A DNA stretch of 64,000 nucleotides from Rallus limicola. Its lineage: Eukaryota; Chordata; Aves; Gruiformes; Rallidae. This document shows positions 1-58,987 of the stretch, one piece after another. The stretch is from NCBI GenBank assembly GCA_022605955.1, contig JAKCOZ010000006.1:1736001-1800000 (forward strand), read 5' to 3'. Numbering within the stretch: the stretch's first letter is position 1; every line of letters begins with the position of its first letter. The notes under the pieces are model-generated. The model had not been told where the DNA came from. It saw only the letters and a list, made by a program, of their open reading frames with translations, and did not search any database. A program made the translations under genes and the position numbers.

Positions 1-531
1 TGGGAAGAGCAAGGCGAGAGTCCATCTGGAGCAGCCGAGCGGTGAGTGATCCCTGCCCTGAGCACCTGGCAAAGGGCTGACAGCCCACGGCAGCTCTGAC
101 ACCGGGGCTGTGCTGGGGGCTGCCAGACACTCACTTGGTCTCGTCCCTCATCAGGTTCTTCCCAACCAACTGGAGGCACAGAGGAGCCTTCAGCAACCCA
201 GGACATGTGGTGAGTGCTGGGGAGACCCCCAGCTCCTGGCCCAGACTCTCCACCTGTGCCCTGCCCGTTTTGGGTGTCCCTGCCTGCCTGCCAGGGAGGG
301 GCTGCTGCCCCGGGGTCCCACAGGAGGGCCCAGGCTGCCATTGGTCCCTTCTCTCTCGTCCTCTGCAGGGAGGAGGAGGAGGAGACAAGGAGCGGGAGGC
401 GCCTGTCCTCTAGCGCCTCGCTGAGCCCCGCGGTCTCCGTGAACTCCTTGTTGGACGTGCTGTCCGCGTGCCTCGACCCCTTCCCCGAGTCCCGCCGCAG
501 GGAAGTGGCCCCTTCTCGCAGACGAGTCAGG
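1..531 (+). repeat. Gene 0 last cassette (A partial, B, C-variant)
   Basis: A 1-41, B 155-209, C-variant 369-531 (163 nt, 54 codons after the split codon). The C-variant is CpG-rich and diverged: EEEEETRSGRRL, then a SLLDVLSACLDPFPE segment, then a basic RRRV-R end. It ends in phase 0 at donor GTAGGTG, and the intron then runs straight into the CpG-island module. Confidence 0.65.
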
Positions 532-3443
532 GTAGGTGCCTGTTACTCCCCACCACGCTGCGCCCGGCTCCAGTCGCTCAGGATCCGGCGCGTCGCCGCC
601 CTCTTAGCGAGGCGGCCGCGGCCCGTTCCGCCTCGTTCGTTCCCACAATCCTCCGCGAAGCGGAAAGGGGAAGGCGGCCGCCAATGAGCGGCCGCTTGGG
701 CGGTGACGGCCCGCCCCGTTGGCAGCCTTGAAGGGTCGGCGCGGCGGGGCAGGTGCCGTGCGGGGCCTGGGCTGTGTGGAGCAGGTGCTGGGCACCCGCG
801 GGAGGAATGGGAAGGGCGAGGCGCTGCCGGGGCGCAAAGGCGCGTGGGGGGTGAGGAGGGGGCTGAGCAGCCGTGCGTGGGGGTAGGGAGAGAGGCAGCC
901 CTGGGTGGGCTGTGGGGGGGAGGTGCTGAGCAGCCATGGGTGGCATAGGGTGCCTTGGGGGTTTCTGAGCACCCGTGGGTATAGGGGTAGGGGTGATAGG
1001 CACCTGTGGGTTTGGGAGGGTTCTGGGCACCCCTGAGTGGGGGGTAAGGTGCATGCTGTGAAGGTGTGTGGGGTGCTGAGCTCCTCCTGGGGTTGCATGA
1101 GGACTCCCAGAGGGGCAGGGTGGGTGGGTGCCCTCAAAGAAGGGGAAGGTAGCACCCCAAAGCCTCCTTCCCTGCTCCAGCCTCGTACAGCATGGGTGAG
1201 ACGCGGGCGCACCCCGAACCCTCCATCGTTCAAGGTGGCTGAGGAGGAGGAGGAGGAGGAGGAGGAAGACCCGGTGCACAGCCATGGTCTCCAGCACGGG
1301 CTGTGCCACGCAGCACCGGTAGCTGCAGGGCCACTTTCTGAGTGGCAGGAGTGGCAGCAGCTCCAGCGCCAGGTCGAGGCTTTGGGGTTGTGCATGGCAC
1401 GTCGGCAGCCTGACACCCAGCCCTGGGGAGCAGCACCTGGCTCGCACCAAGCCCGCCTGCCTTCACCGTCGGGGATGTGAAATGGCTGGGGACCTGTCAG
1501 CCAGCCCACCCCCAGCAGCCCAGGTGTGGGGGGCAGCCGCACCCCCCTGGCCCCTGTTTTGTGGCAGCAGCACTAGGGAATTAAATCTGTTTTTGTCTGA
1601 AGGGCTTGTTTCTGTCTGGGAGTGGTTGGGGTACCCAAGCTGGGGCTCGGCTCTGCAACAGCTCTCCCATGGGTTTCCACTCTGTGTCCTTCCCTGGGCT
1701 GTCCTGAAGCGTTTCCAGCAATGGTCACAGACTGGTCAGGGCTGGGAGGGGCCTCCAAGATCATCCAGTCCCACCCCCTGCCATGAGCACAGACACCTCT
1801 TCCCCAGCCCAGGCTGCTCAAGGTGCAATCCAGCCCGGCCCTGGACACCTCCAGGGAGGGGGCAGCCACCATCTCCCAGGGCCCCCCGTGCCAGGGCCTC
1901 ACCCCTCTCAGAGGGAAGAATTTCTTCCCAATATCCAATGTAAATCTCCCCCGTTTCAATTTAAACCCATCCCTCTCATCCTGTCACTCCTGGCCCTTCT
2001 AAAATGTCCCTCCCCAGCTTTCCCGTAGGCCTTTCAGGGTCTGGAAGGTGCTGTAAGATCTCCCTGGAGCCTTCTCCTGGCTGCCCCAGCCCAACTCTCC
2101 CAGCCTGGCTTCACGGGAGAGGTGCTCCAGCCCTCTGATAATCTTTGTGGCCTCCTCTGGACCCGTTCCAGCAGTCCCATGTGCTTCTTATGTTGGGGAC
2201 CCCAGAACTGGACTCAGCACTCCAGGTGTGGTCTCACGAGAACAAGGGGACAGTGACCGGGAAGCGCCTGTCCCCTCGTGCCCCGGGGCGCTCCTTGGGC
2301 TCCTGGGACTCCCTGTCGGACAGTGGATCCGTGAGTCTCAACGCCTTCCCCATGTCCAGCCCCAGGGAAGTGGAGCCTTCTCCCAGCCCACTCAAGGTAG
2401 GTTACTCTCCACCACACTGCGCTGCACCACATCATGGTATGGTGTGGAGGAATGGCTAGCTAACAGAGGCCACATACACATGGGCCAGTGGTCCGAGCTG
2501 GAATTTGGGAGGCATCGTACACAGCTAGTCTAGTTGCTGATATGAACTGGACGTGCTATTCTTGGATACCTGAGTTGCAGACAACAGGATGCCTCTCTGA
2601 TTCAGGCGTGAGGAAAGGGGGATGGAGCTGAGCACCGATGAAGAACTAAGGGCAGGACTGACCTTAAAAATAATATCCACTACTGAGCTTGGCTTTTGCA
2701 ATATGTAATGAGCTAATTAGAACTCTTATAAAAGATGACTGTAGTATTCAATAAATGGAGCTTGCTGATTACTTGCATGGAGTGTCCAAGTCTTCCCTCT
2801 GTCGCAACAATATGGAGTGGTGTGGGGGGAGCGTGGGGTCTGTAGCATAGGGCTGGGAGCTGCTCCACACTCAGCCTTGTTCTGGGTATCTTAGAGAAGT
2901 GTTGGATGAAGAGGTTTGGAAAGAGGATGGCGAGAGTCCGTCTGAAGCAGCCAAGTGGTGAGTGACCCTGGCAACGAGCGCCCTGCAAAGGGCTGACACC
3001 CCACGCCAGCCCGGACACGGGGCTGTGCTGGGGGCTGCCAGACACTCATTCGTGTCTCGTCCCTCATCAGGTTCTTCCCAAGCAACTGGAGGTGTAGAGA
3101 AGCCTGCGGCACCCGAGACCATGTGGTGAGTGCTGGGGAGACCGCCAGCTCCTGTCTCAGCCTCAGCCTGTGCCCTGTCCTTGCCCACATTGGGCAGCCC
3201 TGCCTGCTGGCTGGGGAGGAGCGGGGTCCCACCAGAGAGGCCAAGCTGCAATTGGGTTTGTTCTCGCTCCTACACTAAAGGGAGAAGGAGGAGACAATGA
3301 GCATGAGGTGCCTGTCCCCATGTGCTCTGCTGGGCTCCATGGTCTCCCTGGGCTCTCTCTTGGATGGCATATCTGCATCTCTTGACTTCTTTTGTTTCCC
3401 CCTCATTGTTAGATTTTTTCCTGATCCCTGTCCTTGTTTATAA
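1..3443 (+). CDS. Gene 0: 3' part of cassette-repeat gene (partial)
   Basis: Only the end of this copy lies in the window; its 5' exons are upstream of position 1. Exons: A 1-41 (partial), B 155-209, C-variant 369-531, optional C'' 2226-2396, terminal A 2897-2957, terminal B 3071-3125, terminal C 3281-3443 (TAA 3441-3443). Splice sites are GT-AG and the phases agree with the complete copies. The last exon starts as host sequence but its 3' part is antisense ERV leader, so the C-terminus is 'FCFPLIVRFF..' and not the longer host tail seen in genes 2 and 3. Family not recognised. It could be a 3' fragment of an intact gene or a decaying copy. Confidence 0.6.
475..860. promoter_or_regulatory. 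CpG island with CCAAT and GC boxes (unit 1)
   Basis: Dense CpG, CCAAT at 681-685 in a good NF-Y context (GCCGCCAATGAGCGG) and a CCCGCCCC GC box at about 710-717. It begins inside C-variant exon 369-531 and continues in the following intron. It looks like a promoter, probably directed to the plus-strand module downstream, but bidirectional use is possible. Confidence 0.6.
562..1710 (+). other. Inserted CpG-island transcription module (unit 1)
   Basis: Homology to the normal post-C intron stops near 560 and this module follows. It holds the promoter, a GC-rich stretch with degenerate GAGCACCCGTGGGT-type minisatellite units (about 830-1080), a possible acceptor CCCTGCTCCAG at 1170-1180, a (GAG)n run near 1240-1265, and an ATTAAA signal at 1580-1585 with GT-rich sequence after it. 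The plus strand has an open stretch to 1480 (poly-Glu, then SEWQEWQQLQRQVEALGL); another frame ends at TGA 1240. I cannot decide between these or identify a product. It resembles a small complete transcription unit trapped in the intron. Confidence 0.45.
1711..2225 (-). mobile_element. CR1 LINE 3' fragment, antisense (unit 1)
   Basis: Reverse-complement CR1 3' region, recognisable by CCAAGATCATCCAGTCCCA, GGGAAGAATTTCTTCCCAAT and the GGACCCCAGAACTGGA segment. It ends against exon C'' and removes that exon's normal acceptor. Confidence 0.8.
2226..2396 (+). other. Orphan exon C'' with CR1-supplied acceptor (gene 0)
   Basis: From GAG at 2238 to AAG at 2396 there are 53 open codons aligned with exon C (GKRLSPRAPGRSLGS..SLSDSGSV), followed by a GTAGGTT donor. 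The normal CTCTGCAG acceptor is gone and antisense CR1 abuts the exon. A CR1-derived CCAG at 2222-2225 would give a 57-codon exon with phase 0 at both ends, matching the neighbouring exons. Use of this site is an inference. Confidence 0.45.
2897..3443 (+). repeat. Gene 0 terminal A-B-C set
   Basis: A 2897-2957 (KCWMKRFGKRMARVRLKQPSG), B 3071-3125 (GSSQATGGVEKPAAPETM), C 3281-3443. Exon C is cut after DSF/DFF-type codons and continues into antisense ERV leader to TAA 3441-3443. Confidence 0.55.
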
Positions 3444-12917: not shown

Positions 12918-13186
12918 CTTGGAAGCAGGGTGCTTGGTTCAAGGAATAAGCACCCAGAGATGGGATCTTGGGTGTTGAAGGTAAGGCCTTTTGTTCTGGT
13001 TGTGGGGTGTCAGGAGCAATGTGAAGTTTGGCTCTCCTGAGAGGTTTCTCCAAGGCGTGATGTGCTTGCTCTGCTCCTCACACAGGTGGGACACATTTCC
13101 AAGTCTGGCTGACAGGATTCAAATGAGAAAGAGCCTTGGAGTGACAGCGGATTTATCCAGTCAGAGTTCTGCCTGCCTCTGAGGGC

Positions 13187-13252
13187 ACCAATGAGGGCTC
13201 AGCACCAATGAGGGCTCAGCACCAATGAGGGCTCAGCGTGCCCGTGATGTCA
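13187..13252 (+). promoter_or_regulatory. Promoter of gene 1: 3 x 17-bp CCAAT repeats plus CRE-like site
   Basis: ACCAATGAGGGCTCAGC occurs three times head to tail (13187-13237), placing CCAAT boxes every 17 bp. TGATGTCA, one mismatch from the CRE palindrome, follows at 13245-13252. The block lies about 190-255 bp upstream of the ATG. No TATA box is evident. NF-Y and CREB/CREM/ATF factors bind such sites; their use here is inferred. Confidence 0.6.
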
Positions 13253-13440: not shown

Positions 13441-13729
13441 ATGGGGTGCTTCGGCACCCCCGTGCCTGATCTGATGCTAGCCTTGATGCTGGGGATGTAT
13501 ATCAGCTTCATCTCCACCTTTCCATGGGCCAGGAGGCTCAGGGTAAGGGAACGTTGCGGCGCACTGAGCCGTGCCGGGTCCTGACATGGGCTGGTGTCAG
13601 GGGGTGTGGGTGGCTGGGAGCTGCTCCCATGTCACGAACTGTCTGGGGGTCTTGCAGAGGCGTTGGAGGAGGAAGCGTGGGAAGAGGTGTTGGAGGAAGG
13701 GCCATGGACACAGCAAGGCGAGACTCAGG
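13441..13729 (+). CDS. Gene 1 exons 1-2: hydrophobic N-terminus and Arg-rich exon
   Basis: Exon 1 is 13441-13542 (34 codons, donor GTAAGG, phase 0). It encodes MGCFGTPVPD, then a Leu/Met/Ile-rich stretch of about 20 residues, then WARRLR. This looks like a signal peptide or signal anchor with a positive C-flank. Exon 2 is 13658-13729 (24 codons, phase 0/0) and reads RRWRRKRGKR..SKARLR. It resembles exon A (KRWRKRFGKSKARV) and is probably an ancient A-type exon. An in-frame TAG lies a few codons upstream of the ATG. Confidence 0.7.
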
Positions 13730-16700
13730 GTAGGTGACTCTGACTCCACACCACACTGTGCCGCACCACGTCATGACATAAAGCGGAGTTGTGGGGGCAT
13801 GGGGGACTGTGGCAGGGGCTGGGTGCTGCTCCACACTCACCCATGTTCTGGGGCTCTTACAGACATTTTGGAGGAAGAGGTTTGCAAAGACCCGGTCGGG
13901 AGTGTATCCTGAGCAGCCGAGCTGTGAGTGACCCCAGCACCGAGCGCCCTGCAAAGGGCTGACACCTCAAGGCAGCCCTGACACGGGGCTGTGCTGGGGG
14001 CTGCCAGACACTCACTCGATCTTGTCAATCATTAGGTTCTTCCCAAGAAACTGGAGGAACAGAGAAGCCGGTGGCACCTGAGACCATGTGGTGAGTGCTG
14101 GGGAGACCCCCAGCTCCTGCCCCAGACTCTCCACCTGTGCCCTACCTGTTTCGGGGTATCCCTGCCTGCCTGCCAGGGAGGGGCTGCTGCCCAGGGGTCC
14201 CACAGGAGGGCCCAGGCTGCAATTGGTCCCTTCTCTCTCCTCCTCTGCAGGGAGAAGGAGGAGATAGGGAGCGGGAAGCGCCTGTCACCGCGTGCCCCAC
14301 GGAGCTCCATGGGCTCCCCGGACTCCCTCTCGGACACCGGATCTGTGCGTTCGAACGCCTTCCCTGAGTCCAGCCCCAGGGAAGTGGAGCCTTCTGCCAG
14401 GCAACACAAGGTAGGTGCCTGTTACTCTCCACCACACTGCACTGCACCACATCATGACATGGAGTGGTGTGGGGGGAGCATGGGGGTCTGTAGCATAGGG
14501 CTGGGATCTGCTCCACACTCACCCATGTTCTGGGGCTCTTGCAGAACTGGTGGAAGAAAATGTTTGGGAAGAGCAAGGCGAGAGTCGATTCAGAGCAGCC
14601 AAGTGGTGAGTGATCCCAGCACCGAGAGCCCTGCAAAGGGCTGACACCTCAAGGCAGCCCTGACACGGGGTCTGTGCTGGGGGCTGCCAGACACTCACTC
14701 ACTCTTGCCAATCATTAGGTTCTTCTCAAGAAACCGGAGGCACAGAGAAGCCTGTGGCACCTGAGACCATGTAGTGAGTGCTGGGGAGACCCCCAGCTCC
14801 TGCCCCAGACTCTCCACCTGTGCCCTGGCTGTTTCGGGGTATCCCTGCCTGCCTGCCAGGGAGGGGCTGATGCTCAGGGGTCCCACTGGAGGGCCCAGGC
14901 TGCAATTGGTCCCTTCTCTCTCCTCCTTTGCAGGGAGAAGGAGGAGAAGGGGAGCGGGAAGTGCCCTTCCCCGCGTGCCCCACGGAGCTCCATGGGCACT
15001 TGGGACTCCCTCTCGGACACCGGGTCTGGGCTTCTCAACACGTTCCCTGATTCCAGCCCCAAGGAAGTGGAGCCTTCTGCCAGGCAACACAAGGTAGGTG
15101 CCTGTTACCCTCCACCACACTGCACTGCACCACTTTATGATATGGAGTGCTGTGGGGGGAGCATGGGGGTCTGTAGCATAGGGCTGGGAGCTGCTCCACA
15201 CTCACCCATGTTCTGGGGCTCTTGCAGAACTGGTGGAAGAAGATGTTTGGGAAGAGCAAGGCGAGAGTTGCTTCAGAGCAGCCAACTGGTGAGTGATCCC
15301 AGCACCGAGAGCCCTGCAAAGGGCTGACACCTCAAGGCAGCCCTGACACCGGGGCTGTGCTGGGGGCTGCCAGACACTCACTCACTCTTGTCAATCATCA
15401 GGTTCTTCCCAAGCAGCTGGGGGCAAAGAGAAGCCTTCATCGCCTGAGACCATGTGGTGAGTGCTGGGGAGACCCCCAGCTCCTGCCCCAGAATCTCCAC
15501 CTGTGCCCTGGCTGTTTCGGGGCATCCCTGCCTGCCTGCCAGAGAGGGGCTGCTGCCCAGGGGTCCCACAGGAGGGCCCAGGCTGCAATTGGTCCCTTCT
15601 CTCTCCTCCTCTGCAGGGAGAAGGAGGAGACAGGGAGCGGGAAGCGCCTGTCACCGCGTGCCCCACGGAGCTCCATGGGCTCCCTGGACTCCCTCTCGGA
15701 CAGCGGATCTGTGCATCTCAACACCTTCCCTGAGTCCAGCCCCAGGGAAGTGGAGCCTTCTGCCAGGCAACACAAGGTAGGTGCCTGTTACTCTCCACCA
15801 CACTGCACTGCACCACATCATGACATGGAGTGGTGTGGGGGGAGCATGGGGGTCTGTAGCATAGGGCTGGGAGCTGCTCCACACTCACCCATGTTCTGGG
15901 GCTCTTGCAGAACTGGTGGAAGAAAATGTTTGGGAAGAGCAAGGCGAGAGTCGATTCAGAGCAGCCAAGTGGTGAGTGATCCCAGCACCGAGCGCCCTGC
16001 AAAGGGCTGACACCTCAAGGCAGCCCTGACACTGGGGAAGTGCTGTGGGGTGCCAGACACTCACTCACTCTTGTCAATCATCAGGTTCTTCCCAAGCACC
16101 CAGAGGCACAGAGAAGCCCGTGGCACCTGAGACCATGTGGTGAGTGCTGGGGAGACCCCCAGCTCCTGGCCCAGAATCTCCACCTGTGCTCTGCCAGTTT
16201 CGGGGTATCCCTGCCTGCCTGCCAGGGAGGGGCTGCTGCCAAGGGGTCCCACAGGAGGGCCCAGGCATCAATTGGTCCCTTCTCTCTCCTCCTCTGCAGG
16301 GAGAGGGAGGAGACAGGGAGCGGGAAGCGCCTGTCACCACGTGCCCCACAGAGCTCCATGGGCTCTTTGGACTCTCTCTCGGACACCGGGTCTGGGCTTC
16401 TCAACACGTTCCCTGATTCCAACCCCAAGGAAGTGGAGCCTTCTGCCAGGACACACAAGGTAGGTGCCTGTTACTCTTCACCACACTGCACTGCACCACA
16501 TCATGACATGGAGTGGTGTGGGGGGAGCATGGGGGTCTGTAGCATAGGGCTGGGAGCTGCTCCACACTCACCCATGTTCTGGGGCTCTTGCAGAACTGGT
16601 GGAAGAAAATGTTTGGGAAGAGCAAGGCGGGAGTCGATTCAGAGCAGCCAAGTGGTGAGTGATCCCAGCACCGAGTGCCCTGCAAAGGGCTGACACCTCA

Positions 16701-19700
16701 AGGCAGGCATGACACCGGGGCTGTGCTAGGGGCTGTCAGACACTAACTTGGTCTTGTTCCTCATCAGGTTCTTCCCAAGCAGCTGGAGAAACAGGGAAGC
16801 CCGTGGCACCTGAGACCATGTGGTGAGTGCTGGGGAGACCCCCAGCTCCTGCCCCAGACTCTCCACCTGTGCCCTGCCCGTTTTGGGTGTCCCTGCCTGC
16901 CTGCCAGGGAGGGGCTGCTGCCCTGGGGTCCCCAAGGACGGCCCAGGCTGCAATTGGTCCCTTCTCTCTCCTCCTCTGCAGGGAGAAGGAGGAGACAGGG
17001 AGCGGGAAGTGCCCTTCCCCGTGTGCCCTGAGGAGCTCCATGGGCTCCCTGGGCTCCTTGTCAAAGCCCACGGCACCCGAGACCATGAGGTGAGTGCTGG
17101 GGAGACCCCCAGCTCCTGGCCCAGAATTTCCACCTGTGCCCTGACTGTTTTATGGTGTCCCTGCCTGCCTGCCAGGGAGGGACTGCTGCTCAGTTGTCCC
17201 AAAGGAGGGCCCAGGCTGCAATTGGTCCCTTCTCTCTCCTCCTCTGCAGGGAGAAGGAGGAGACAAGGAGTGGGAATCTCCTGTCCCCGCATGCCCCACG
17301 GAGCTCCATGGGCTCCCTGGGCTCATTTTTGGACAGCAGATCTGCCTGTCTCAATCCCTTCCCCGAGTCCAGCCCCAGCCAAGTGGAGCCTTCTTCCAAC
17401 CGAGTCAAAGTAGGTGCCTGTTACTCCCCACCACACTGCACTGCACCATGTCCTGACATGGAGTGGTGTGCTGTTGCAGTCCCCTTGTCCCAAAAAGGAC
17501 TTTAGCCAGGGCTGGAAGGGCAGGACCCCGCACGCCGGCTATGGATGCACACCAATATGGTTAAAAGCAATCACCCCATTTTATTCTGGCAAGCTGAAGC
17601 CTTTTATACTTTCACAGAAGACAGCAAGCTCACATGGATAGTTAGCTTTCACACAGATAGGTAGGGGCCTGAGATGGGGCGGGGGAAACCCAGCTGCACG
17701 GTATCCAGCTTCTGTTACCACTTTGGAATGTAAGGAGCTCTCCTCAGAGTCCTAGTTCTCATGCTTGTTAGCTTCTTATCAGAGCTATGGCTCAGAGCAG
17801 GTGCTCAAGCTGTTGCAGGGGAAAATGGCCTTGATCACTTAACCAGTCACCCACAGTGTGGAGCATGGGGGTCTGTAGCATAGGGCTGGGAGCTGCTCCA
17901 CACTCACCCACATTCTGGGGTTCTTGCAGAAGCGTTGGAGGAAGAGGGTTGGGAAGAGCAAGGCGAGAGTCCGTCTGGAGCAGCCGAGCGGTGAGTGATC
18001 CCTGCCCTGAGCACCTGGCAAAGGGCTGACAGCCCACGGCAGCTCTGACACCGGGGCTGTGCTGGGGGCTGCCAGACACTCACTTGGTCTCGTCCCTCAT
18101 CAGGTTCTTCCCAACCAACTGGAGGCACAGAGGAGCCTTCAGCAACCCAGGACATGTGGTGAGTGCTGGGGAGACCCCCAGCTCCTGGCCCAGACTCTCC
18201 ACCTGTGCCCTGCCCGTTTTGGGTGTCCCTGCCTGCCTGCCAGGGAGGGGCTGCTGCCCCGGGGTCCCACAGGAGGGCCCAGGCTGCCATTGGTCCCTTC
18301 TCTCTCGTCCTCTGCAGGGAGGAGGAGGAGGAGACAAGGAGCGGGAGGCGCCTGTCCTCTAGCGCCTCGCTGAGCCCCGCGGTCTCCGTGAACTCCTTGT
18401 TGGACGTGCTGTCCGCGTGCCTCGACCCCTTCCCCGAGTCCCGCCGCAGGGAAGTGGCCCCTTCTCGCAGACGAGTCAGGGTAGGTGCCTGTTACTCCCC
18501 ACCACGCTGCGCCCGGCTCCAGTCGCTCAGGATCCGGCGCGTCGCCGCCCTCTTAGCGAGGCGGCCGCGGCCCGTTCCGCCTCGTTCGTTCCCACAATCC
18601 TCCGCGAAGCGGAAAGGGGAAGGCGGCCGCCAATGAGCGGCCGCTTGGGCGGTGACGGCCCGCCCCGTTGTCAGCCTTGAAGGGTCGGCGCGGCGGGGCA
18701 GGTGCCGTGCGGGGCCTGGGCTGTGTGGAGCAGGTGCTGGGCACCCGCGGGAGGAATGGGAAGGGCGAGGCCGCTGCCGGGGCGCAAAGGCGCGTGGGGG
18801 GTGAGGAGGGGGCTGAGCAGCCGTGCGTGGGGGTAGGGAGAGAGGCAGCCCTGGGTGGGGTGTGGGGGGGAGGTGCTGAGCAGCCATGGGTGGCATAGGG
18901 TGCCTTGGGGGTTTCTGAGCACCCGTGGGTATAGGGGTAGGGGTGATAGGCACCTGTGGGTTTGGGAGGGTTCTGGGCACCCCTGAGTGGGGGGTAAGGT
19001 GCATGCTGTGAAGGTGTGTGGGGTGCTGAGCTCCTCCTGGGGTTGCATGAGGACTCCCAGAGGGGCAGGGTGGGTGGGTGCCCTCAAAGAAGGGGAAGGT
19101 AGCACCCCAAAGCCTCCTTCCCTGCTCCAGCCTCGTACAGCATGGGTGAGACGCGGGCGCACCCCGAACCCTCCATCGTTGAAGGTGGCTGAGGAGGAGG
19201 AGGAGGAAGACCCGGTGCACAGCCATGGTCTCCAGCACGGGCTGTGCCACGCAGCACCGGTAGCTGCAGGGCCACTTTCTGAGTGGCAGGAGTGGCAGCA
19301 GCTCCAGCGCCAGGTCGAGGCTTTGGGGTTGTGCATGGCACGTCAGCAGCCTGATGCCCAGCCCTGGGGAGCAGCACCTGGCTCGCACCAAGCCCGCCTG
19401 CCTTCACCATCCGGGATGTGAAATGGCTGGGGACCTGTCAGCCAGCCCACCCCCAGCAGCCCAGGTGTGGGGGGCAGCCGCACCCCCCTGGCCCCCGTTT
19501 TGTGGCAGCAGCACTGGGGAATTAAATCTGTTTCTGTCTGAAGGGCTTGTTTCTGTCTCTGCCATCAGGGGGAGGTGGAAGCTCAGGGGAGGGGATGCTT
19601 CTAGGGACAGATGGGTGTTTGCAGTCCAAAATGTCCCAAACTGGGAGCGGTTGGTGTACCCAAGCTGTGGCTCTGCTCTGCAACAGTTCTCCCCTGGGTT

Positions 19701-21468
19701 TCCACTCTGTGTCCTTCCCTGGGCTGTCCTGAAGCGTTTCCAGCAATGGTCACAGACTGCTCAGGGCTGGGAGGGGCCTCCAAGATCATCCAGTCCCACC
19801 CCCTGCCATGGGCACAGACACCTCTTCCCCAGCCCAGGCTGCTCAAGGTGCCACCCAGCCCGGCCCTGGACACCTCCAGGGATGGGGCAGCCACCATCTC
19901 CCTGGATCCCCCATGCCAGGGCCTCACCCCTCTCAGAGGGAAGAATTTCTTCCCAATATCCAATGTAAATCTGCCCCGTTTCAGTTTAAACCCATCCCTC
20001 TCATCCTGTCACTCCTGGCCCTTCTAAAATGTCCCTCCCCAGCTTTCCCGTAGGCCTTTCAGGGTCTGGAAGGTGCTGTAAGATCTCCCTGGAGCCTTCT
20101 CCTGGCTGCCCCAGCCCAACTCTCCCAGCCTGGCTTCATGGGAGAGGTGCTCCAGCCCTCTGATAATCTTTGTGGCCTCCTCTGGACCCGTTCCACCAGT
20201 CCCATGTGCTTCTTATGTTGGGGACCCCAGAACTGGACCCAGCACTCCAGGTGTGGTCTCTCGAGAAGAAGGGGACAGTGACCGGGAAGCGCCTGTCCCC
20301 ACGTGCCCCGGGGCGCTCCATGGGCTCCTGGGACTCCCTGTCGGACGGTGGATCCGTGAGTCTCAACGCCTTCCCCATGTCCAGCCCCAGGGAAGTGGAG
20401 CCTTCTCCCAGCCCACTCAAGGTAGGTTACTCTCCACCACACTGCGCTGCACCACCTCATGATATGGTGTGGAGGAATGGCTAGCTAACAGAGGCCACAT
20501 ACACATGGGCCAGTGGTCCGAGCTGGAATTTGGGAGGCATCGTACACAGCTAGTCTAGTTGCTGATATGAACTGGACGTGCTATTCTTGGATACCTGAGT
20601 TGCAGACAACAGGATGCCTCTCTGATTCAGGCGTGAGGAAAGGGGGATGGAGCTGACCACCGATGAAGAACTAAGGGCAGGACTGACCTTAAAAATAATA
20701 TCCACTAATGAGCTTGGCTTTTGCAATATGTAATGAGCTAATTAGAACTCTTATAAAAGATGACTGTAGTATTCAATAAATGGAGCTTGCTGATTACTTG
20801 CATGGAGTGTCCAAGTCTTCCCTCTGTCGCAACAATATGGAGTGGTGTGGGGGGAGCGTGGGGTCTGTAGCATAGGGCTGGGAGCTGCTCCACACTCAGC
20901 CTTGTTCTGGGTATCTTAGAGAAGTGTTGGATGAAGAGGTTTGGAAAGAGGATGGCGAGAGTCCGTCTGGAGCAGCCAAGTGGTGAGTGACCCTGGCAAC
21001 GAGCGCCCTGCAAAGGGCTGACACCCCATGCCAGCCCGGACACGGGGCTGTGCTGGGGGCTGCCAGACACTCATTCGTGTCTCGTCCCTCATCAGGTTCT
21101 TCCCAAGCAACTGGAGGTGTAGAGAAGCCTGCGGCACCCGAGACCATGTGGTGAGTGCTGGGGAGACCGCCAGCTCCTGTCTCAGCCTCAGCCTGTGCCC
21201 TGTCCTTGCCCACATTGGGCAGCCCTGCCTGCTGGCTGGGGAGGAGCGGGGTCCCACCAGAGAGGCCAAGCTGCAATTGGGTTTGTTCTCGCTCCTACAC
21301 TAAAGGGAGAAGGAGGAGACAATGAGCATGAGGTGCCTGTCCCCATGTGCTCTGCTGGGCTCCATGGTCTCCCTGGGCTCTCTCTTGGATGGCATATCTG
21401 CATCTCTTGACTCCTTTTGTTTCCCCCTCATTGTTAGATTTTTTCCTGATCCCTGTCCTTGTTTATAA
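13441..21468 (+). CDS. Gene 1: cassette-repeat gene with 6 cassettes; probably interrupted
   Basis: ATG at 13441 has a strong Kozak context (G at -3, G at +4). Exons: 13441-13542, 13658-13729, then six A-B-C cassettes between 13863 and 18480, optional exon 20251-20421, terminal exons 20922-20982, 21096-21150, 21306-21468 (TAA). Without the optional exon the model is about 739 codons. Exon B of cassette 2 (14719-14773) ends in TA instead of TG. Spliced to the leading G of exon C this makes TAG at about residue 189, and the donor also loses its -1 G. The copy is therefore probably truncated unless that junction is skipped. The C-terminus is ERV-derived, as in gene 0. Product: N-terminal hydrophobic segment, Arg-rich linker, Ser/Pro-rich 92-residue repeats. 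Function unknown. Confidence 0.7.
13863..14410 (+). repeat. Gene 1 cassette 1
   Basis: A0 13863-13923 (TFWRKRFAKT.., last base T so the split codon is Cys), B 14036-14090, C 14251-14410. A0 is the most diverged A exon of the array and heads it in all three complete genes. The acceptor of B is ATTAG rather than ATCAG. Confidence 0.65.
14545..15093 (+). repeat. Gene 1 cassette 2, junction stop
   Basis: A 14545-14605 (NWWKKMFGKSKARV), B 14719-14773, C 14934-15093. The last base of exon B is A (position 14773) where every other B exon has G. The codon split across B and C therefore becomes TAG. Confidence 0.65.
15228..15776 (+). repeat. Gene 1 cassette 3
   Basis: A 15228-15288 (..KARVASEQPTG), B 15402-15456 (GSSQAAGGKEKPSSPETM), C 15617-15776 (SLDSLSDSGSV). 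It starts exactly 683 bp after the previous A exon. Confidence 0.65.
15911..16459 (+). repeat. Gene 1 cassette 4
   Basis: A 15911-15971, B 16085-16139 (GSSQAPRGTEKPVAPETM), C 16300-16459 (SLDSLSDTGSGLLNTFPDS). Exact 683-bp step; all splice sites intact. Confidence 0.65.
16594..17409 (+). repeat. Gene 1 cassette 5 with chimeric C/B exon
   Basis: A 16594-16654, B 16768-16822, chimeric exon 16982-17089 (108 nt: first half of exon C fused to the last third of exon B), then full exon C 17250-17409. The chimera begins and ends at phase 2, so the frame continues and this cassette encodes 128 codons instead of 92. Confidence 0.65.
17472..17855 (-). mobile_element. Solo LTR, 384 bp, intron of gene 1
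   Basis: Read on the minus strand it starts TGTGGGTGACTGG, has a TATA-like GTATAAAAGG, an AATAAA signal, and ends CTGCAACA. On the plus strand it is flanked by GTGTG on both sides (17466-17470 and 17856-17860), a 5-bp target duplication of the cassette intron. It is inserted antisense between exon C of cassette 5 and exon A of cassette 6. Confidence 0.7.
17930..18480 (+). repeat. Gene 1 cassette 6 (last, basic A plus C-variant)
   Basis: A 17930-17990 (KRWRKRVGKSKARVRLEQPSG), B 18104-18158, C-variant 18318-18480 (54 codons). It is almost identical to positions 1-531 of gene 0. The intron before exon A contains the solo LTR. Confidence 0.65.
18425..18810. promoter_or_regulatory. CpG island with CCAAT and GC boxes (unit 2)
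   Basis: Same element as at 475-860; CCAAT at 18630-18634. Confidence 0.6.
18511..19733 (+). other. Inserted CpG-island transcription module (unit 2)
   Basis: As in unit 1 with a shorter (GAG)n run; ATTAAA at 19521-19526. It includes about 70 bp before the CR1 (around 19560-19650) that unit 1 lacks. Confidence 0.45.
19734..20250 (-). mobile_element. CR1 fragment, antisense (unit 2)
   Basis: Same insertion as at 1711-2225, full length. Confidence 0.8.
20251..20421 (+). other. Orphan exon C'' (gene 1)
   Basis: Same arrangement as at 2226-2396: CCAG in CR1 immediately before GTGTGG, 57 codons open, donor GTAGGTT at 20422. Confidence 0.45.
20922..21468 (+). repeat. Gene 1 terminal A-B-C set
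   Basis: A 20922-20982, B 21096-21150, C 21306-21468 with the ERV-derived tail and TAA 21466-21468. Same breakpoint as in gene 0. Confidence 0.55.
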
Positions 21469-31339: not shown

Positions 31340-31628
31340 ATGGGGTGCTTCGGCACCCCCGTGCCTGATCTGATGCTAGCCTTGATGCTGGGGATGTATA
31401 TCAGCTTCATCTCCACCTTTCCATGGGCCAGGAGGCTCAGGGTAAGGGAACGTTGCGGCGCACTGAGCCGTGCCGGGTCCTGACATGGGCTGGTGTCGGG
31501 GGGTGTGGGTGGCTGGGAGCTGCTCCCATGTCACGAACTGTCTGGGGGTCTTGCAGAGGCGTTGGAGGAGGAAGCGTGGGAAGAGGTGTTGGAGGAAGGG
31601 CCATGGCAACAGCAAGGCGAGACTCAGG
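31340..31628 (+). CDS. Gene 2 exons 1-2
   Basis: Exon 1 is 31340-31441 and exon 2 is 31557-31628. Exon 1 encodes the same residues as in gene 1. Exon 2 differs by an Asp/His to Asn-type change (HGNSKARLR instead of HGHSKARLR). Both exons are phase 0 at both ends. Confidence 0.7.
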
Positions 31629-34600
31629 GTAGGTGACTCTGACTCCACACCACACTGTGCCGCACCACGTCATGACATAAAGCGGAGTTGTGGGGGCATG
31701 GGGGACTGTGGCAGGGGCTGGGTGCTGCTCCACACTCACCCATGTTCTGGGGCTCTTGCAGACATTTTGGAGGAAGAGGTTTGCAAAGACCCGGTCGGGA
31801 GTGTGTCCTGAGCAGCCGAGCTGTGAGTGACCCCAGCACCGAGCGCCCTGCAAAGGGCTGACACCTCAAGGCAGCCCTGACACGGGGCTGTGCTGGGGGC
31901 TGCCAGACACTCACTCGATCTTGTCAATCATCAGGTTCTTCCCAAGCAACCGGAGGCACAGAGAAGCCGGTGGCACCTGAGACCATGTGGTGAGTGCTGG
32001 GGAGACCCCCAGCTCCTGCCCCAGACTCTCCACCTGTGCCCTACCTGTTTCGGGGTATCCCTGCCTGCCTGCCAGGGAGGGGCTGCTGCCAAGGGGTCCC
32101 ACAGGAGGGCCCAGGCTGCAATTGGTCCCTTCTCTCTCCTCCTCTGCAGTGAGAAGGAGGAGACAGGGAGCGGGAAGCGCCTGTCACCGCGTGCCCCACG
32201 GAGCTCCATGGGCTCCCCGGACTCCCTCTCGGACACCAGATCTGTGTGTTCCAACGCCTTCCCTGAGTCCAGCCCCAGGGAAGTGGAGCCTTCTGCCAGG
32301 CAACACAAGGTAGGTGGCTGTTACCCTCCACCACACTGCACTGCACCATGTCATGATATGGAGTGGTGTGGGGGGAGCATGGGGGTCTGTAGCATAGGGC
32401 TGGGATCTGCTCCACACTCACCCATGTTCTGGGGCTCTTGCAGAACTGGTGGAAGAAAATGTTTGGGAAGAGCAAGGCGAGAGTCGATTCAGAGCAGCCA
32501 AGTGGTGAGTGATCCCAGCACCGAGCGCCCTGCAAAGGGCTGACACCTCAAGGCAGCCCTGACACCGGGGCTGTGCTGGGGGCTGCCAGACACTCACTCA
32601 CTCTTGCCAATCATCAGGTTCTTCCCAAGAAACCGGAGGCACAGAGAAGCCTGTGGCACCTGAGACCATGTGGTGAGTGCTGGGGAGACCCCCAGCTCCT
32701 GCCCCAGACTATCCACCTGTGCTCTGCCTGTTTCGGGGTATCCCTGCCTGCCTGCCAGGGAGGGGCTGCTGCCCAGGGGTCCCACAGGAGGGCCCAGGCT
32801 GCAATTGGTCCCTTCTCTCTCCTCCTTTGCAGGGAGAAGGAGGAGACAGGGAGCGGGAAGTGCCCTTCCCCGCGTGCCCCACGGAGCTCCATGGGCTCTT
32901 GGGACTCCCTCTCGGACACCGGGTCTGGGCTTCTCAACACGTTCCCTGATTCCAGCCCCAACAAAGTGGAGCCTTCTGCCAGGCAACACAAGGTAGGTGC
33001 CTGTTACTCTCCACCACACTGCACTGCACCACATCATGACATGGAGTGGTGTGGGGGGAGCATGGGGGTCTGTAGCATAGGGCTGGGATCTGCTCCACAC
33101 TCACCCATGTTCTGGGGCTCTTGCAGAACTGGTGGAAGATGTTTGGGAAGAGCAAGGCGAGAGTCGATTCAGAGCAGCCAAGTGGTGAGTGACCCCAGCA
33201 CCGAGCGCCCTGCAAAGGGCTGACACCTCAAGGCAGCCCTGACACTGGGGATGTGCTGGGGGGTGCCAGACACTCACTCACTCTTGTCAATCATCAGGTT
33301 CTTCCCAAGCAGCTGGAGAAACAGGGAAGCCCGTGGCACCTGAGACCATGTGGTGAGTGCTGGGGAGACCCTCAGCTCCTGCCCCAGACTCTCCACCTGT
33401 GCCCTGCCCGTTTTGGGTGTCCCTGCCTGCCTGCCAGGGAGGGGCTGCTGCCCTGGGGTCCCCAAGGACGGCCCAGGCTGCAATTGGTCCCTTCTCTCTC
33501 CTCCTCTGCAGGGAGAAGGAGGAGATAGGGAGCGGGAAGTGCCCTTCGCCGCGTGCCCCACGGAGCTCCATGGGCTGCCTGGGCTCCTTGTCCAACAGCG
33601 GGTCTGGGCGTCTCAACACCTTCCCTGAGTCCAGCCCCAGGGAAGTGGAGCCTTCTGCCAGGCAACACAAGGTAGGTGCCTGTTACCCTCCACCACACTG
33701 CTGTGTGCCTTGTCATGACATGGAGTGGTGTGGGGGAAGCATGGGGGTCTGTAGCATAGGGCTGGGTGCTGCTCCACACTCACCCATGTTCTGGGGCTCT
33801 TGCAGAACTGGTGGAAGAAGTTGTTTGGGAAGAGCAAGGCGAGAGTTGCTTCAGAGCAGCCAAGTGGTGAGTGATCCCAGCACCGAGCACCCTGCAAAGG
33901 GCTGACACCTCAAGGCAGCCCTGACACCGGGGCTGTGCTGGGGGCTGCCAGACACTCACTCACTCACTCACTCACGTCAACCATCAGGTTCTTCCCAAGC
34001 AGCTGAAGACACAGAGAAGCCTTCATCACCTGAGACCATGTGGTGAGTGCTGGGGAGACCCCCAGCTCCTTCCCTAGACTAACCACCCGTGCCCTGGCTG
34101 TTTCGGGGTATGCCTGCCTGCCTGCCTGCCAGGGAGGGGCTGCTGCCCAGGGGTCCCACAGGAGGGCCCAGGCTGCAATTGGTCCCTTCTCTTTCCTCCT
34201 CTGCAGGGAGAAGGAGGAGACAACGTGCGGGAATCTCCTATCCCCGTGTGCTCTGCAGAGCTCCATGGGCTCCCTGGGCTCCTTGTCCAACAGCGGGTCT
34301 GGGTGTCTCAACACCTTCCCTGAGTCCAGCCCCAGGGAAGTGGAGCCTTCTGCCAGGCAACACAAGGTAGGTGCCTGTTACTCTTCACCACACTGCACTG
34401 CACCACATCATGACATGGAGTGGTGTGGGGGGAGCATGGGGGTCTGTAGCATAGGGCTGGGATCTGCTCCACACTTACCCATGTTCTGGGGCTCTTGCAG
34501 AACTGGTGGAAGAAGTTGTTTGGGAAGAGCAAGGCGAGAGTCGATTCAGAGCAGCCAAGTGGTGAGTGATCCCAGCACCGAGCGCCCTGCAAAGGGCTGA

Positions 34601-37600
34601 CACCTCAAGGCAACCCTGACACCGGGGCTGTGCTGGGGGCTGCCAGACACTCACTCAGTCTTGTCAATCATCAGGTTCTTCCCAAGCAGCTGGGGGCAAA
34701 GAGAAGCCTTCGTCACCTGAGACCATGTGGTGAGTGCTGGGGAGACCCCCAGCTCCTGGCCCAGACTCTCCACCTGTGCCCTGCCTGTTTTGCGTGTCCC
34801 TTCCTGCCTGCCAGGGAGGGGCTTCTGCTCAGGGGTCCCACAGGAGGGCCCAGGCTGCAATTGGTCCCTTCTCTCTCCTTCTCTGCAGGGAGAAGGAGGA
34901 GACAATGAGCGGGAATGTCCTTTCCCCGCGTGCTCCACGGAGCTCCATGGGCTCCCTGGGCTCCCTGTCCAACAGCGGGTCTGGGCATCTCAACACCTTC
35001 CCTGAGTCCAGCCCCAGGGAAGTGGAGCCTTCTGCCAGGCAACACAAGGTAGGTGCCTGTTACTCTTCACCACACTGCACTGCACCATGTCATGACATGG
35101 AGTGGTGTGGGGGGAGCATGGGGGTCTGTAGCATAGGGCTGGGATCTGCTCCACACTCACCCATGTTCTGGGGCTCTTGCAGAACTGGTGGAAGAAAATG
35201 TTTGGGAAGAGCAAGGCGGGAGTCGATTCAGAGCAGCCAAGTGGTGAGTGATCCCAGCACCGAGCACCCTGCAAAGGGCTGACACCTCAAGGCAGCCCTG
35301 ATACGGGGCTGTGCTGGTGGCTGACAGACACTCACTCGGTCTTGTCAATCATCAGGTTCTTCCCAAGCAGCTGGAGACACAGAGAAGCCTTCATCACCTG
35401 AGACCATGTGGTGAGTGCTGGGGAGACCCCCAGCTCCTGGCCCAGACTCTCCACCTTTGCCCATGCTCTTACGGGGTATCCCTGACTGCCTGCCAGGGAG
35501 GGACTGCTGCTCAGTGGTCCCAAAGGACGGCCCAGGCTGCAATTGGTCCCTTCTCTCTCCTCCTCTGCAGGGAGAAGGAGGAGACAAGGAGTGGGAATCT
35601 CCTGTCCTCGCATGCCCCACGGAGCTCCATGGGCTCCCTGGGCTCCTTGTCAAAGCCCACGGCACCCGAGACCATGAGGTGAGTGCTGGGGAGACCCCCA
35701 GCTCCTGGCCCAGAATTTCCACCTGTGCCCTGACTGTTTTATGGTGTCCCTGCCTGCCTGCCAGGGAGGGACTGCTGCTCAGTTGTCCCAAAGGAGGGCC
35801 CAGGCTGCAATTGGTCCCTTCTCTCTCCTCCTCTGCAGGGAGAACGAGGAGACAAGGAGTGGGAATCTCCTGTCCCCGCATGCCCCACGGAGCTCCACGG
35901 GCTCCCTGGGCTCATTTTTGGACAGCGGATCCACCTGTCTCAATCCCTTCCCCGAGTCCAGCCCCAGCCAAGTGGAGCCTTCTTCCAACCGAGTCAAAGT
36001 AGGTGCCTGTTACTCCCCACCACACTGCACTGCACCATGTCCTGACATGGAGTGGTGTGCTGTTGCAGTTCCCTTGTCCCAAAAATGACTTTAGCCAGGG
36101 CTGGAAGGGCAGGATCCCGCACGCCGGCTATGGATGCACACCAATATGGTTAAAAGCAATCACCCCATTTTATTCTGGCAAGCTGAAGCCTTTTATACTT
36201 TCACAGAAGACAGCAAGCTCACATGGAGAGTTAGCTTTCACACAGATAGGTAGGGGCCTGAGATGGGGCGGGGGAAACCCAGCTGCACGGTATCCAGCTT
36301 CTGTTACCACTTTGGAATGTAAGGAGCTCTCCTCAGAGTCCTAGTTCTCATGCTTGTTAGCTTCTTATCAGAGCTATGGCTCAGAGCAGGTGCTCAAGCT
36401 GTTGCAGGGGAAAATGGCCTTGATCACTTAACCAGTCACCCACAGTGTGGAGCATGGGGGTCTGTAGCATAGGGCTGGGAGCTGCTCCACACTCACCCAC
36501 ATTCTGGGGTTCTTGCAGAAGCGTTGGAGGAAGAGGTTTGGGAAGAGCAAGGCGAGAGTCCGCCTGGAGCAGCCGAGCGGTGAGTGATCCCTGCCCTGAG
36601 CACCTGGCAAAGGGCTGACACCCCATGGCAGCTCTGACACCGGGGCTGTGCTGGGGGCTGCCAGACACTCACTTGGTCTCGTCCCTCATCAGGTTCTTCC
36701 CAACCAACTGGAGGCACAGAGGAGCCTTCAGCAACCCAGGACATGTGGTGAGTGCTGGGGAGACCCCCAGGTCCTGCCCCAGACTCTCCACCTGTGCCCT
36801 GCCTGTTTTGGGTGTCCCTTCCTGGCTGCCTGCCAGGGAGGGGCTGATGCCAAGGGGTCCCACAGGAGGGCCCAGGCTGCCATTGGTCCCTTCTCTCTCC
36901 TCCTCTGCAGGGAGAAGGAGGAGACAGGGAGCGGGAAGTGCCATTCCCCGCCTGCCCCACGGAGCTCCATGGGCTCCCTGGGCTCCTTGTCAAAGAGTGG
37001 GTCTGTGTGTTTCAAGGCCTTCCCTGAGTCCAGCCCCAGGGAAGTGGAGCCTTCGGCCAGGACACACAAGGTAGGTGCCTGTTACTCTCCACCACACTGC
37101 ACTGCACCACATCATGACATGGAGTGGTGTGGGGGGAGCATGGGGGTCTGTAGCATAGGGCTGGGAGCTGCTCCACACTCACCCACATTCTGGGGTTCTT
37201 GCAGAAGCGTTGGAGGAAGAGGGTTGGGAAGAGCAAGGCGAGAGTCCGTCTGGAGCAGCCGAGCGGTGAGTGATCCCTGCCCTGAGCACCTGGCAAAGGG
37301 CTGACAGCCCACGGCAGCTCTGACACCGGGGCTGTGCTGGGGGCTGCCAGACACTCACTTGGTCTCGTCCCTCATCAGGTTCTTCCCAACCAACTGGAGG
37401 CACAGACAAGCCCGTGGCACCAGCAACCCAGGACATGTGGTGAGTGCTGGGGAGACCCCCAGCTCCTGGCCCAGACTCTCCACCTGTGCCCTGCCCGTTT
37501 TGGGTGTCCCTGCCTGCCTGCCTGCCAGGGAGGGGCTGCTGCCCCGGGGTCCCACAGGAGGGCCCAGGCTGCCATTGGTCCCTTCTCTCTCGTCCTCTGC

Positions 37601-49240: not shown

Positions 49241-49529
49241 ATGGGGTGCTTCGGCACCCCCGTGCCTGATCTGATGCTAGCCTTGATGCTGGGGATGTAT
49301 ATCAGCTTCATCTCCACCTTTCCATGGGCCAGGAGGCTCAGGGTAAGGGAACGTTGCGGCGCACTGAGCCGTGCCGGGTCCTGACATGGGCTGGTGTCGG
49401 GGGGTGTGGGTGGCTGGGAGCTGCTCCCATGTCACGAACTGTCTGGGGGTCTTGCAGAGGCGTTGGAGGAGGAAGCGTGGGAAGAGGTGTTGGAGGAAGG
49501 GCCATGGCAACAGCAAGGCGAGACTCAGG
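49241..49529 (+). CDS. Gene 3 exons 1-2
   Basis: Exon 1 is 49241-49342 and exon 2 is 49458-49529. They are as in gene 2, with donors GTAAGG and GTAGGTG and acceptor CTTGCAG. The Kozak context of the ATG is unchanged. Confidence 0.7.
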
Positions 49530-58500: not shown

Positions 58501-58987
58501 ACGGGGCTGTGCTGGGGGCTGCCAGACACTCATTCGTGTCTCGTCCCTCATCAGGTTCTTCCCAAGCAACTGGAGGTGTAGAGAAGCCTGCGGCACCCGA
58601 GACCATGTGGTGAGTGCTGGGGAGACCCCCAGCTCCTGTCTCAGCCTCAGCCTGTGCCCTGTCCTTGCCCACATTGGGCAGCCCTGCCTGCTGGCTGGGG
58701 AGGAGCGGGGTCCCACCAGAGAGGCCAAGCTGCAATTGGGTTTGTTCTCGCTCCTACACTAAAGGGAGAAGGAGGAGACAATGAGCATGAGGTGCCTGTC
58801 CCCATGTGCTCTGCTGGGCTCCATGGTCTCCCTGGGCTCTCTCTTGGATGGCATATCTGCATCTCTTGACTCCTTCCCAGAGCCCAGGCCTGGTGCGATG
58901 GGGAAGCAGGAAGCTCTCAACCCATCGCGAGCCCTCCAGACCCAGCAGAGGATGACCGTGAGGGGCCTGTCCCCCTTACTCTGCTGA
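49241..58987 (+). CDS. Gene 3: cassette-repeat gene with 9 cassettes, open
   Basis: Exons: 49241-49342, 49458-49529, nine cassettes between 49663 and 56334, optional 57710-57880, terminal 58381-58441, 58555-58609, 58765-58987 (TGA). The spliced frame is open for about 1,035 codons (about 1,092 with the optional exon), the longest of the copies. Its last cassette, CpG-island module and terminal exons are almost identical to those of gene 2, so these parts were duplicated or converted recently. The array itself differs from gene 2 by one extra cassette and by the order of cassette subtypes. Family and function are not recognised; the gene has the same domain plan as gene 2. Confidence 0.75.
49663..50210 (+). 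repeat. Gene 3 cassette 1
   Basis: A0 49663-49723 (RLGVYPEQPS variant), B 49836-49890, C 50051-50210. Splice sites intact. Confidence 0.65.
50345..50891 (+). repeat. Gene 3 cassette 2
   Basis: A 50345-50405, B 50518-50572, C 50732-50891 (GSGKCPSPRAP subtype). The upstream acceptor context is GGGATCTTGCAG. All in phase. Confidence 0.65.
51026..51571 (+). repeat. Gene 3 cassette 3 (58-nt exon A)
   Basis: A 51026-51083 (NWWKMFGKSK, one codon short), B 51197-51251, C 51412-51571. This is the positional match of gene 2 cassette 3, which has the same one-codon loss. Confidence 0.65.
51706..52258 (+). repeat. Gene 3 cassette 4
   Basis: A 51706-51766 (NWWKKLFGKSKARVASEQPSG), B 51880-51934, C 52099-52258. 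Exon C begins with T, so the B/C codon is Cys, as in gene 2 cassette 1. Confidence 0.65.
52393..52940 (+). repeat. Gene 3 cassette 5
   Basis: A 52393-52453 (KAGVDSEQ variant), B 52567-52621 (AAGETGKPVAPETM), C 52781-52940. Splice sites intact. Confidence 0.65.
53076..53628 (+). repeat. Gene 3 cassette 6
   Basis: A 53076-53136 (NWWKKLFGKSKARVDSEQ), B 53250-53304, C 53469-53628 (EKEETKCGNLLSPCALRSS). Its C exon is of the same type as gene 2 cassette 4, so subtype order differs between the two genes. Confidence 0.65.
53763..54571 (+). repeat. Gene 3 cassette 7 with chimeric C/B exon
   Basis: A 53763-53820 (58 nt; KARDDSEQ variant), B 53933-53987, chimeric C/B 54144-54251 (108 nt), C 54412-54571. 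In phase throughout. Confidence 0.65.
54634..55017 (-). mobile_element. Solo LTR, 384 bp, intron of gene 3
   Basis: Third copy of the same insertion, 384 bp, flanked by GTGTG. Confidence 0.7.
55092..55639 (+). repeat. Gene 3 cassette 8
   Basis: A 55092-55152, B 55266-55320, C 55480-55639 (SMGSLSKSGSVCFNAFPES). It matches gene 2 cassette 7. Confidence 0.65.
55774..56334 (+). repeat. Gene 3 cassette 9 (last)
   Basis: A 55774-55834, B 55948-56008 (61 nt), C-variant 56172-56334. Protein-identical to gene 2 cassette 8. Confidence 0.65.
56279..56665. promoter_or_regulatory. CpG island with CCAAT and GC boxes (unit 4)
   Basis: Same element; CCAAT at 56484-56488. Almost identical to the unit 3 copy. 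Confidence 0.6.
56365..57488 (+). other. Inserted CpG-island transcription module (unit 4)
   Basis: Near-identical to unit 3, including the CR1 junction; ATTAAA at 57378-57383. Confidence 0.45.
57489..57709 (-). mobile_element. CR1 fragment, antisense, shortened (unit 4)
   Basis: Identical deletion to unit 3. Confidence 0.75.
57710..57880 (+). other. Orphan exon C'' (gene 3)
   Basis: Identical in layout to the gene 2 copy; donor GTAGGTT at 57881. Confidence 0.45.
58381..58987 (+). repeat. Gene 3 terminal A-B-C set, full-length tail
   Basis: A 58381-58441, B 58555-58609, C 58765-58987 (TGA). Encodes the same tail as gene 2; in this last exon gene 2 has TTC where gene 3 has CTC-type sequence only in an overlapping frame. 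Confidence 0.6.

Follow-up and report, generated by a model that had tools for sequence, protein, structure and literature searches.

A phase-coherent three-exon cassette amplified within putative tandem genes of Rallus limicola

A stretch of 64,000 nucleotides from Rallus limicola (Rallidae; GenBank assembly GCA_022605955.1, contig JAKCOZ010000006.1, positions 1,736,001 to 1,800,000; hereafter the window) contains the tail of one gene, termed gene 0, and three complete genes, genes 1 to 3, in tandem about 17.9 kb apart. Inside these genes a cassette of three exons, A, B and C, with lengths of 61, 55 and 160 nt, is repeated head to tail. The exons have GT/AG ends and the phases 0-1, 1-2 and 2-0. 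The cassette is entered and left in phase 0 and its whole exons sum to 276 nt, a multiple of three corresponding to 92 codons, thus a complete cassette can be gained, lost or swapped without a shift of the frame. The window probably holds an orphan gene family of birds, arranged in a tandem array and growing by frame-neutral exchange inside and between the genes. We infer from the nucleotide sequence that the cassette genes are transcribed and translated. If expressed, they present a clear natural case of gene growth by phase-matched exon blocks, with recombination at two scales and a protein without recognised relatives.

Cassette anatomy and gene models

Genes 1 to 3 comprise 26 cassettes (20 standard, three hybrid and three terminal ones): seven in gene 1, nine in gene 2 and ten in gene 3. 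Two further cassettes, the first of them incomplete, belong to gene 0, which is cut by the window start. An earlier note on this DNA had described a 683-bp cassette of this exon and phase pattern, amplified inside a gene in about 25 copies; the anatomy, the number and the in-frame joins across the cassettes of genes 1 to 3 were recovered. Exon lengths of 61, 55 and 160 nt, ascribed by that note to each cassette, were found in 15 of the 20 standard cassettes. In-frame insertions or deletions (indels) in the other five give exon lengths of 58 nt for A, 61 nt for B or 163 nt for C, and each gene has one cassette in which C is replaced by a C/B fusion exon (108 nt, phase 2 to 2). The A exons of gene 1 at 14545, 15228, 15911 and 16594 are separated by three successive steps of exactly 683 bp, as had been noted, and the preceding step measures 682 bp. 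Throughout genes 1 to 3, A-to-A steps free of an insertion or an extra exon span 679-695 bp, the remaining steps 1329-2992 bp. The consensus of the 15 exact cassettes is NWWKKMFGKSKARVDSEQPSGSSQATGGTEKPVAPETMWEKEETGSGKRLSPRAPRSSMGSLDSLSDSGSVRFNAFPESSPREVEPSARQHK.

All complete genes have the same layout: an ATG exon of 34 codons, a basic exon 2 of 72 nt, a cassette of the TFW type, cassettes of the NWW type, cassettes of the KRW type (one in gene 1, two each in genes 2 and 3) and a terminal cassette. The last NWW-type cassette of each gene contains the C/B fusion, followed by a full C exon. The first coding exons start with ATGs at 13441, 31340 and 49241, and their 34 residues are identical in genes 1 to 3. 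Once spliced, genes 2 and 3 provide 944 and 1035 stop-free codons over 30 and 33 exons. The span 13863..18480 assigned to the cassettes in the earlier note covers only a part of gene 1, for which the model extends from the ATG at 13441 to a terminal exon past 18480. The features of the array are:

1..3443, plus strand: gene 0, 3' part, cut by the window start; ends at an in-frame TAA
13441..13542, plus strand: gene 1, first coding exon, MGCFGTPVPDLMLALMLGMYISFISTFPWARRLR
13658..13729, plus strand: gene 1, exon 2, 72 nt, rich in Arg/Lys
13863..14410, plus strand: gene 1, cassette 1, TFW type (A 13863-13923, B 14036-14090, C 14251-14410)
14545..15093, plus strand: gene 1, cassette 2 (A 14545-14605, B 14719-14773, C 14934-15093), with a TAG across the B/C junction
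15228..15776, plus strand: gene 1, cassette 3
15911..16459, plus strand: gene 1, cassette 4
16594..17409, plus strand: gene 1, cassette 5, with hybrid C/B exon 16982-17089 (108 nt, phase 2 to 2) and full C exon 17250-17409; counterparts at 35571 in gene 2 and 54144 in gene 3
17930..18480, plus strand: gene 1, KRW-type cassette (A 17930-17990, B 18104-18158, C 18318-18480, the latter of 163 nt)
20922..21468, plus strand: gene 1, terminal cassette (A 20922-20982, B 21096-21150, last exon from 21306, in-frame TAA 21466-21468); 3' part unlike genes 2 and 3
31340..40418, plus strand: gene 2, 30 exons, 944 codons, then TGA
49241..58987, plus strand: gene 3, 33 exons, 1035 codons, then TGA

Measured by a 17-bp repeat, the unit starts lie 17,899 and 17,901 bp apart. 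In the self-comparison of the window, long alignments between units had identities of 91-99%, lowest at the cassette arrays and up to 99% in the spacers. Past their stops, genes 2 and 3 have a possible polyadenylation signal (AATAAA or ATTAAA) at a distance of about 600-800 bp; the 2.6 kb searched past gene 1 contained no such signal.

Splice sites, reading frame and amino-acid changes

GT-AG borders were present in all 84 modelled introns, a partly circular count because the donors were located by donor strings. For a motif-free check 17 of the 20 standard cassettes were aligned whole, with the boundaries taken from one of them. The same 17 served for the diversity counts, the three cassettes with a long following intron being left out of both; a C exon lacking an acceptor, present in four copies, was excluded from all cassette, codon, diversity and splice-site counts. 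None of the 12 GT/AG columns was variable, and variable columns amounted to 2 of 36 splice-site columns vs 10.8 expected from random intron blocks (P = 0.00095; 0.00085 in a variant run). Such splice-site conservation, with P about 0.001, argues against a dying or dead gene array, i.e., a formerly coding array turned into a satellite-like amplicon in which young, homogenised copies keep the frame. Against this explanation also stand the uninterrupted frames of genes 2 and 3 and the absence of frameshifts from the 26 cassettes of genes 1 to 3.

Gap intervals in the 20 standard cassettes measured 3, 6 and 3 nt in exons and 1, 8, 1, 4 and 1 nt in introns. Multiples of three in the exons are not expected of a spliced long non-coding RNA (lncRNA) amplicon with cassettes open in one frame by accident. 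The phase-compatible hybrid and terminal exons and the ATG exon shared without change by genes 1 to 3 likewise oppose this explanation. An lncRNA would agree with the lack of a recognisable protein family, with an antisense frame nearly as open as the sense frame, and with amplified lncRNAs in chicken dot chromosomes, as given in the excerpted text of PMC9974502; we consider it very improbable.

Frame 0 of genes 2 and 3 was free of stops over the first 940 codons, the other two sense frames contained 12-18. In gene 1 there was one stop in frame 0, with 12 and 15 in the other sense frames. Openness alone is moderate, non-decisive evidence because the antisense strand too has a nearly open frame (stops: 3 in genes 2 and 3, 1 in gene 1). 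The earlier note regarded the agreement of splice sites, phase and frame across cassettes as direct evidence for coding. Phase and frame do agree; among near-identical repeats, such an agreement is not independent evidence. The case for real genes would lean more on splice-site conservation, indel lengths, shared first and last exons and the hybrid exons that keep the frame.

Amino-acid changes were counted in 15 of the 26 cassettes, the hybrid and terminal cassettes (three each) and the five with in-frame indels being left out. In the null model changes were moved to sites of like base and CpG context. The 135 distinct changes were 39 synonymous, 95 non-synonymous and 1 stop vs 34.0, 97.3 and 3.7 expected, and the 97 shared changes included 0 stops vs 2.9 expected (P = 0.048). 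Resolved by exon, observed and expected non-synonymous changes were 54 and 52.6 in C, 24 and 24.8 in A, and 17 and 19.1 in B, none of the differences being significant. A counting method yielded dN/dS values of 0.63 (15 cassettes) and 0.59 (10 NWW cassettes), ignoring transition and CpG bias. Protein constraint as an inference from these values was rejected, as the context-keeping null did not bear it out. The earlier note had taken dN/dS near 1 together with random frameshifts in other individuals as evidence against its reading: of this combination the ratio near 1 was roughly seen, and no frameshift was present in the 26 cassettes. Positional comparison of genes 2 and 3 in five stretches yielded totals of 17 non-synonymous and 3 synonymous changes; for the five comparisons that involve gene 1, the totals were 12 and 7, gene 1 cassette 1 being counted twice.

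Recombination, cassette diversity and opposing observations

The cassettes have a mosaic make-up, in keeping with unequal exchange and conversion. Twelve NWW cassettes revealed at least 26 recombination intervals (Rmin), their site incompatibility grew with distance from 27% at <50 bp to 50% at >300 bp, and the nearest-relative cassette switches between segments. In the mechanism that we propose, each gene would consist of a fixed ATG exon, the basic exon 2, several three-exon cassettes in succession and a terminal cassette. As cassettes undergo unequal exchange or conversion with one another, whole ones would be added, deleted or swapped with the frame kept, and exchange within exons would give rise to in-frame hybrids, e.g., the 108-nt C/B exon.

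Diversity over the 17 cassettes was 0.140 in exons vs 0.066 in introns, a contrast that only the unshifted arrangement reached among 700 circular shifts. CpG columns made up 20% of the exon and 6% of the intron; without them the diversities were 0.104 vs 0.058 (17 cassettes) and 0.085 vs 0.057 (12 NWW cassettes). The exon excess sits in shared variants, not in singletons: shared variable columns accounted for 34% of the exon vs 14% of the intron, singletons for 8% vs 13% (Fisher P about 2e-6 under the assumption of independent sites, which these sites are not). This pattern fits exon types that would be kept and shuffled while introns are homogenised.

Selection may add to such a gene family, rather than replace it as an explanation, if cassette diversity were favoured in an arms race (gamete interaction, drive or immunity) and conversion homogenised the introns. 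We regard this addition as speculative. The contrasts between exon and intron, in diversity and in shared variable columns, are in line with it. An excess of non-synonymous changes was not found, and synonymous differences are raised too, so that selection on amino acids is not demonstrated. The CpG content explains a part of the contrast, though the contrast persists without CpG columns, and in the 12 NWW cassettes the shared-site contrast was reached by 22 of 700 shifts. Equally speculative is the wider idea of a bird-specific orphan family with a two-level tandem ratchet, cassettes in genes and genes in an array; introns would be homogenised and exon types shuffled and kept diverse, so that an arms race would act on the encoded repertoire of repeats. 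Since short-read assemblies are likely to collapse such arrays, the pace at which cassettes are gained, lost and shuffled could be measured directly in long-read genomes from related birds.

Besides the nearly open antisense frame, a number of observations weigh against a living, growing gene family. Non-synonymous changes were not depleted (P = 0.34), hence protein constraint was not shown by the matched null, and the stop deficit over all 135 changes was non-significant (P = 0.085). The frame of gene 1 is broken by one in-frame TAG at codon 189, split TA/G over the B/C junction of cassette 2 (14773/14934). Genes 0 and 1 have a 3' end unlike that of genes 2 and 3, and the further C exon (four copies, from 20262) is without an acceptor of its own. 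Recurrent mutation could be responsible for a part of the site incompatibility. The contrast of exon and intron diversity is weaker in the 12 NWW cassettes (0.110 vs 0.064, reached by 13 of 700 circular shifts), and the hydrophobic stretch in exon 1 is moderate (best 19-residue Kyte-Doolittle mean 1.62). A dead array would account for the amino-acid changes at the neutral expectation, the TAG of gene 1, the altered 3' end of genes 0 and 1, the acceptor of the C exon lost in all four units, and the 17 non-synonymous to 3 synonymous changes between genes 2 and 3. With the conserved splice sites and intact frames on the other side, we regard it as unlikely and retain the orphan gene family as the probable interpretation.

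Several sequence details accompany these sites. The codon split over the B/C junction is TG/T (Cys) in place of TG/G (Trp) in two cassettes (32150, 52099); the same codon is the TA/G of gene 1 cassette 2. In genes 0 and 1 the last exon follows that of genes 2 and 3 as far as SLDSF or SLDFF, then diverges and runs to another stop (21417-21774); by eye, the sequences rejoin at TGAAGCAGG. The acceptor-less C exon (20251-20421, also at 2226, 39141 and 57710) is fused to an apparent antisense end, which we take to be of CR1. An AG in this apparent CR1 end could create an exon of 171 nt, phase 0 to 0 and open in all four copies, and thereby a possible extra in-frame exon.

Predicted product, further elements and known systems

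The predicted product of gene 3 contains 17% serine (178 of 1035 residues). Net charges by segment are +3 to +8 for A, -2 for B and 0 for C. Exon 1 starts with MGCFGT, in our assumption similar to a signal for N-myristoylation and palmitoylation. With each cassette the product would gain one basic patch that contains Trp (NWWKKMFGKSKARV or a variant) together with one neutral spacer rich in Ser/Pro, and the N-terminal hydrophobic stretch would anchor the predicted protein. Conceivably, with a low probability, the product is membrane-attached, disordered and serine-rich, the number of cassettes setting the number of basic binding patches. Membrane-bound polybasic proteins of the MARCKS type are similar in a possible N-terminal membrane attachment and in aromatic-containing basic patches beside serines, a likeness of composition only.

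Upstream of gene 1 a candidate promoter was located:

13185..13237, plus strand: candidate promoter of gene 1, a 17-bp unit repeated 3.1 times with three CCAAT boxes at -253, -236 and -219 from the ATG, then TGATGTCA at -196

This arrangement of CCAAT and TGATGTCA recurs at the same positions upstream of genes 2 and 3 and suggests a promoter role. CCAAT boxes and a CRE-like element are the names we presume for these motifs. TATAAA or TATATA was absent from the 400 bp upstream of the gene 1 ATG. A bacterial promoter scan was uninformative for bird DNA. Every unit possesses a CpG-rich island in the intron before the terminal cassette (18401-18800, 401-800, 37601-38000, 56001-56800), with an observed/expected ratio of 0.57-0.97 in 400-bp bins, a GC content of 0.69-0.73 and CCAAT in the gene 1 copy; the island may serve as a promoter, either for the neighbouring gene copy or for a different transcript. 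In genes 1 to 3 the intron preceding the first KRW cassette measures 520 bp and contains an insertion of about 386 bp (17463-17853 in gene 1) that looks like a long terminal repeat (LTR). A solo-LTR-like insert at 20467-20834, with ATATGG on both flanks, separates the acceptor-less C exon from the terminal A exon. Breaks in the self-alignment point to a stretch of about 385 bp (19638-20022) that the gene 0 and gene 1 units share and the units of genes 2 and 3 lack.

For the 1035-residue product of gene 3, the 7992 candidates sharing most words were scored and none had E <= 1. The candidates had 0.55-1.75 times the query length, and only the first 500 residues supplied words; relatives below this length range would escape the search. 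An unspliced 182-residue open reading frame (ORF) containing the C exon had 107 candidates, none with E <= 1, the spliced 92-residue cassette alone not being searched in the protein collection. As control, the ORF at 9419-10207, presumably CR1-like, matched 3172 proteins at E <= 0.001. The named ones among the matches listed were from birds, including reverse transcriptases of Mycteria, Limosa and Grus, so the collection does contain bird proteins. Three query pieces had no Pfam match above the cut-off (UPF0184, E 0.073, was below it), and the 92-residue query no match in the PDB at E <= 1. The earlier statement that the repeat protein is unlike known families is therefore upheld for the length-limited protein, Pfam and PDB searches. 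A scan of viral contigs returned one 33-residue match (L001) in a stretch holding, by eye, a tRNA-like sequence; it was rejected as a relative and taken as chance. Among 590 pattern matches in prokaryote genome contigs none was a relative. Rfam at gathering thresholds and ARAGORN reported nothing, ten of the 85 listed ORFs (157-438 aa, from spacers and the CpG-rich region) lacked a Pfam match at E <= 0.1, and no description of this gene was present in the best-ranked literature matches at the level of titles and abstract beginnings.

The growth mode suggested by the sequence resembles that of the kringle IV type 2 (KIV-2) repeat of human LPA. According to the portions of PMC4378929 drawn on here, two exons of 160 and 182 bp (342 bases) in a 5.5-kb unit are present there in 1 to >40 copies. 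Common to both is a multi-exon cassette, a multiple of three in length, amplified within one gene. The copy number varies in LPA, and here the gene copies have 7, 9 and 10 cassettes. KIV-2 has two exons and a folded kringle, whereas the present cassette has three exons over all three phases, short introns and no known domain; furthermore, unlike in LPA, the whole cassette gene is itself repeated in tandem. No kringle family was detected at the Pfam cut-off in the three pieces, and membership in the LPA protein family is thus not supported. The gene is apparently undescribed; it stands apart by a three-exon unit using all three phases, by its short introns, by the nesting of this unit in tandemly repeated whole genes and by a predicted product for which the searches yielded no relative.

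Among birds, the testis amplicons of chicken dot chromosomes and the HINT1W array are similar in that genes stand in tandem with a kilobase-scale unit; in contrast to the present genes, no intragenic cassette array is described for them in the excerpted text (PMC9974502). On seven of ten chicken dot chromosomes, amplified genes show expression biased towards or specific to testis (PMC9974502, same excerpt). By this analogy testis would be the first tissue to examine for transcripts of the cassette genes.

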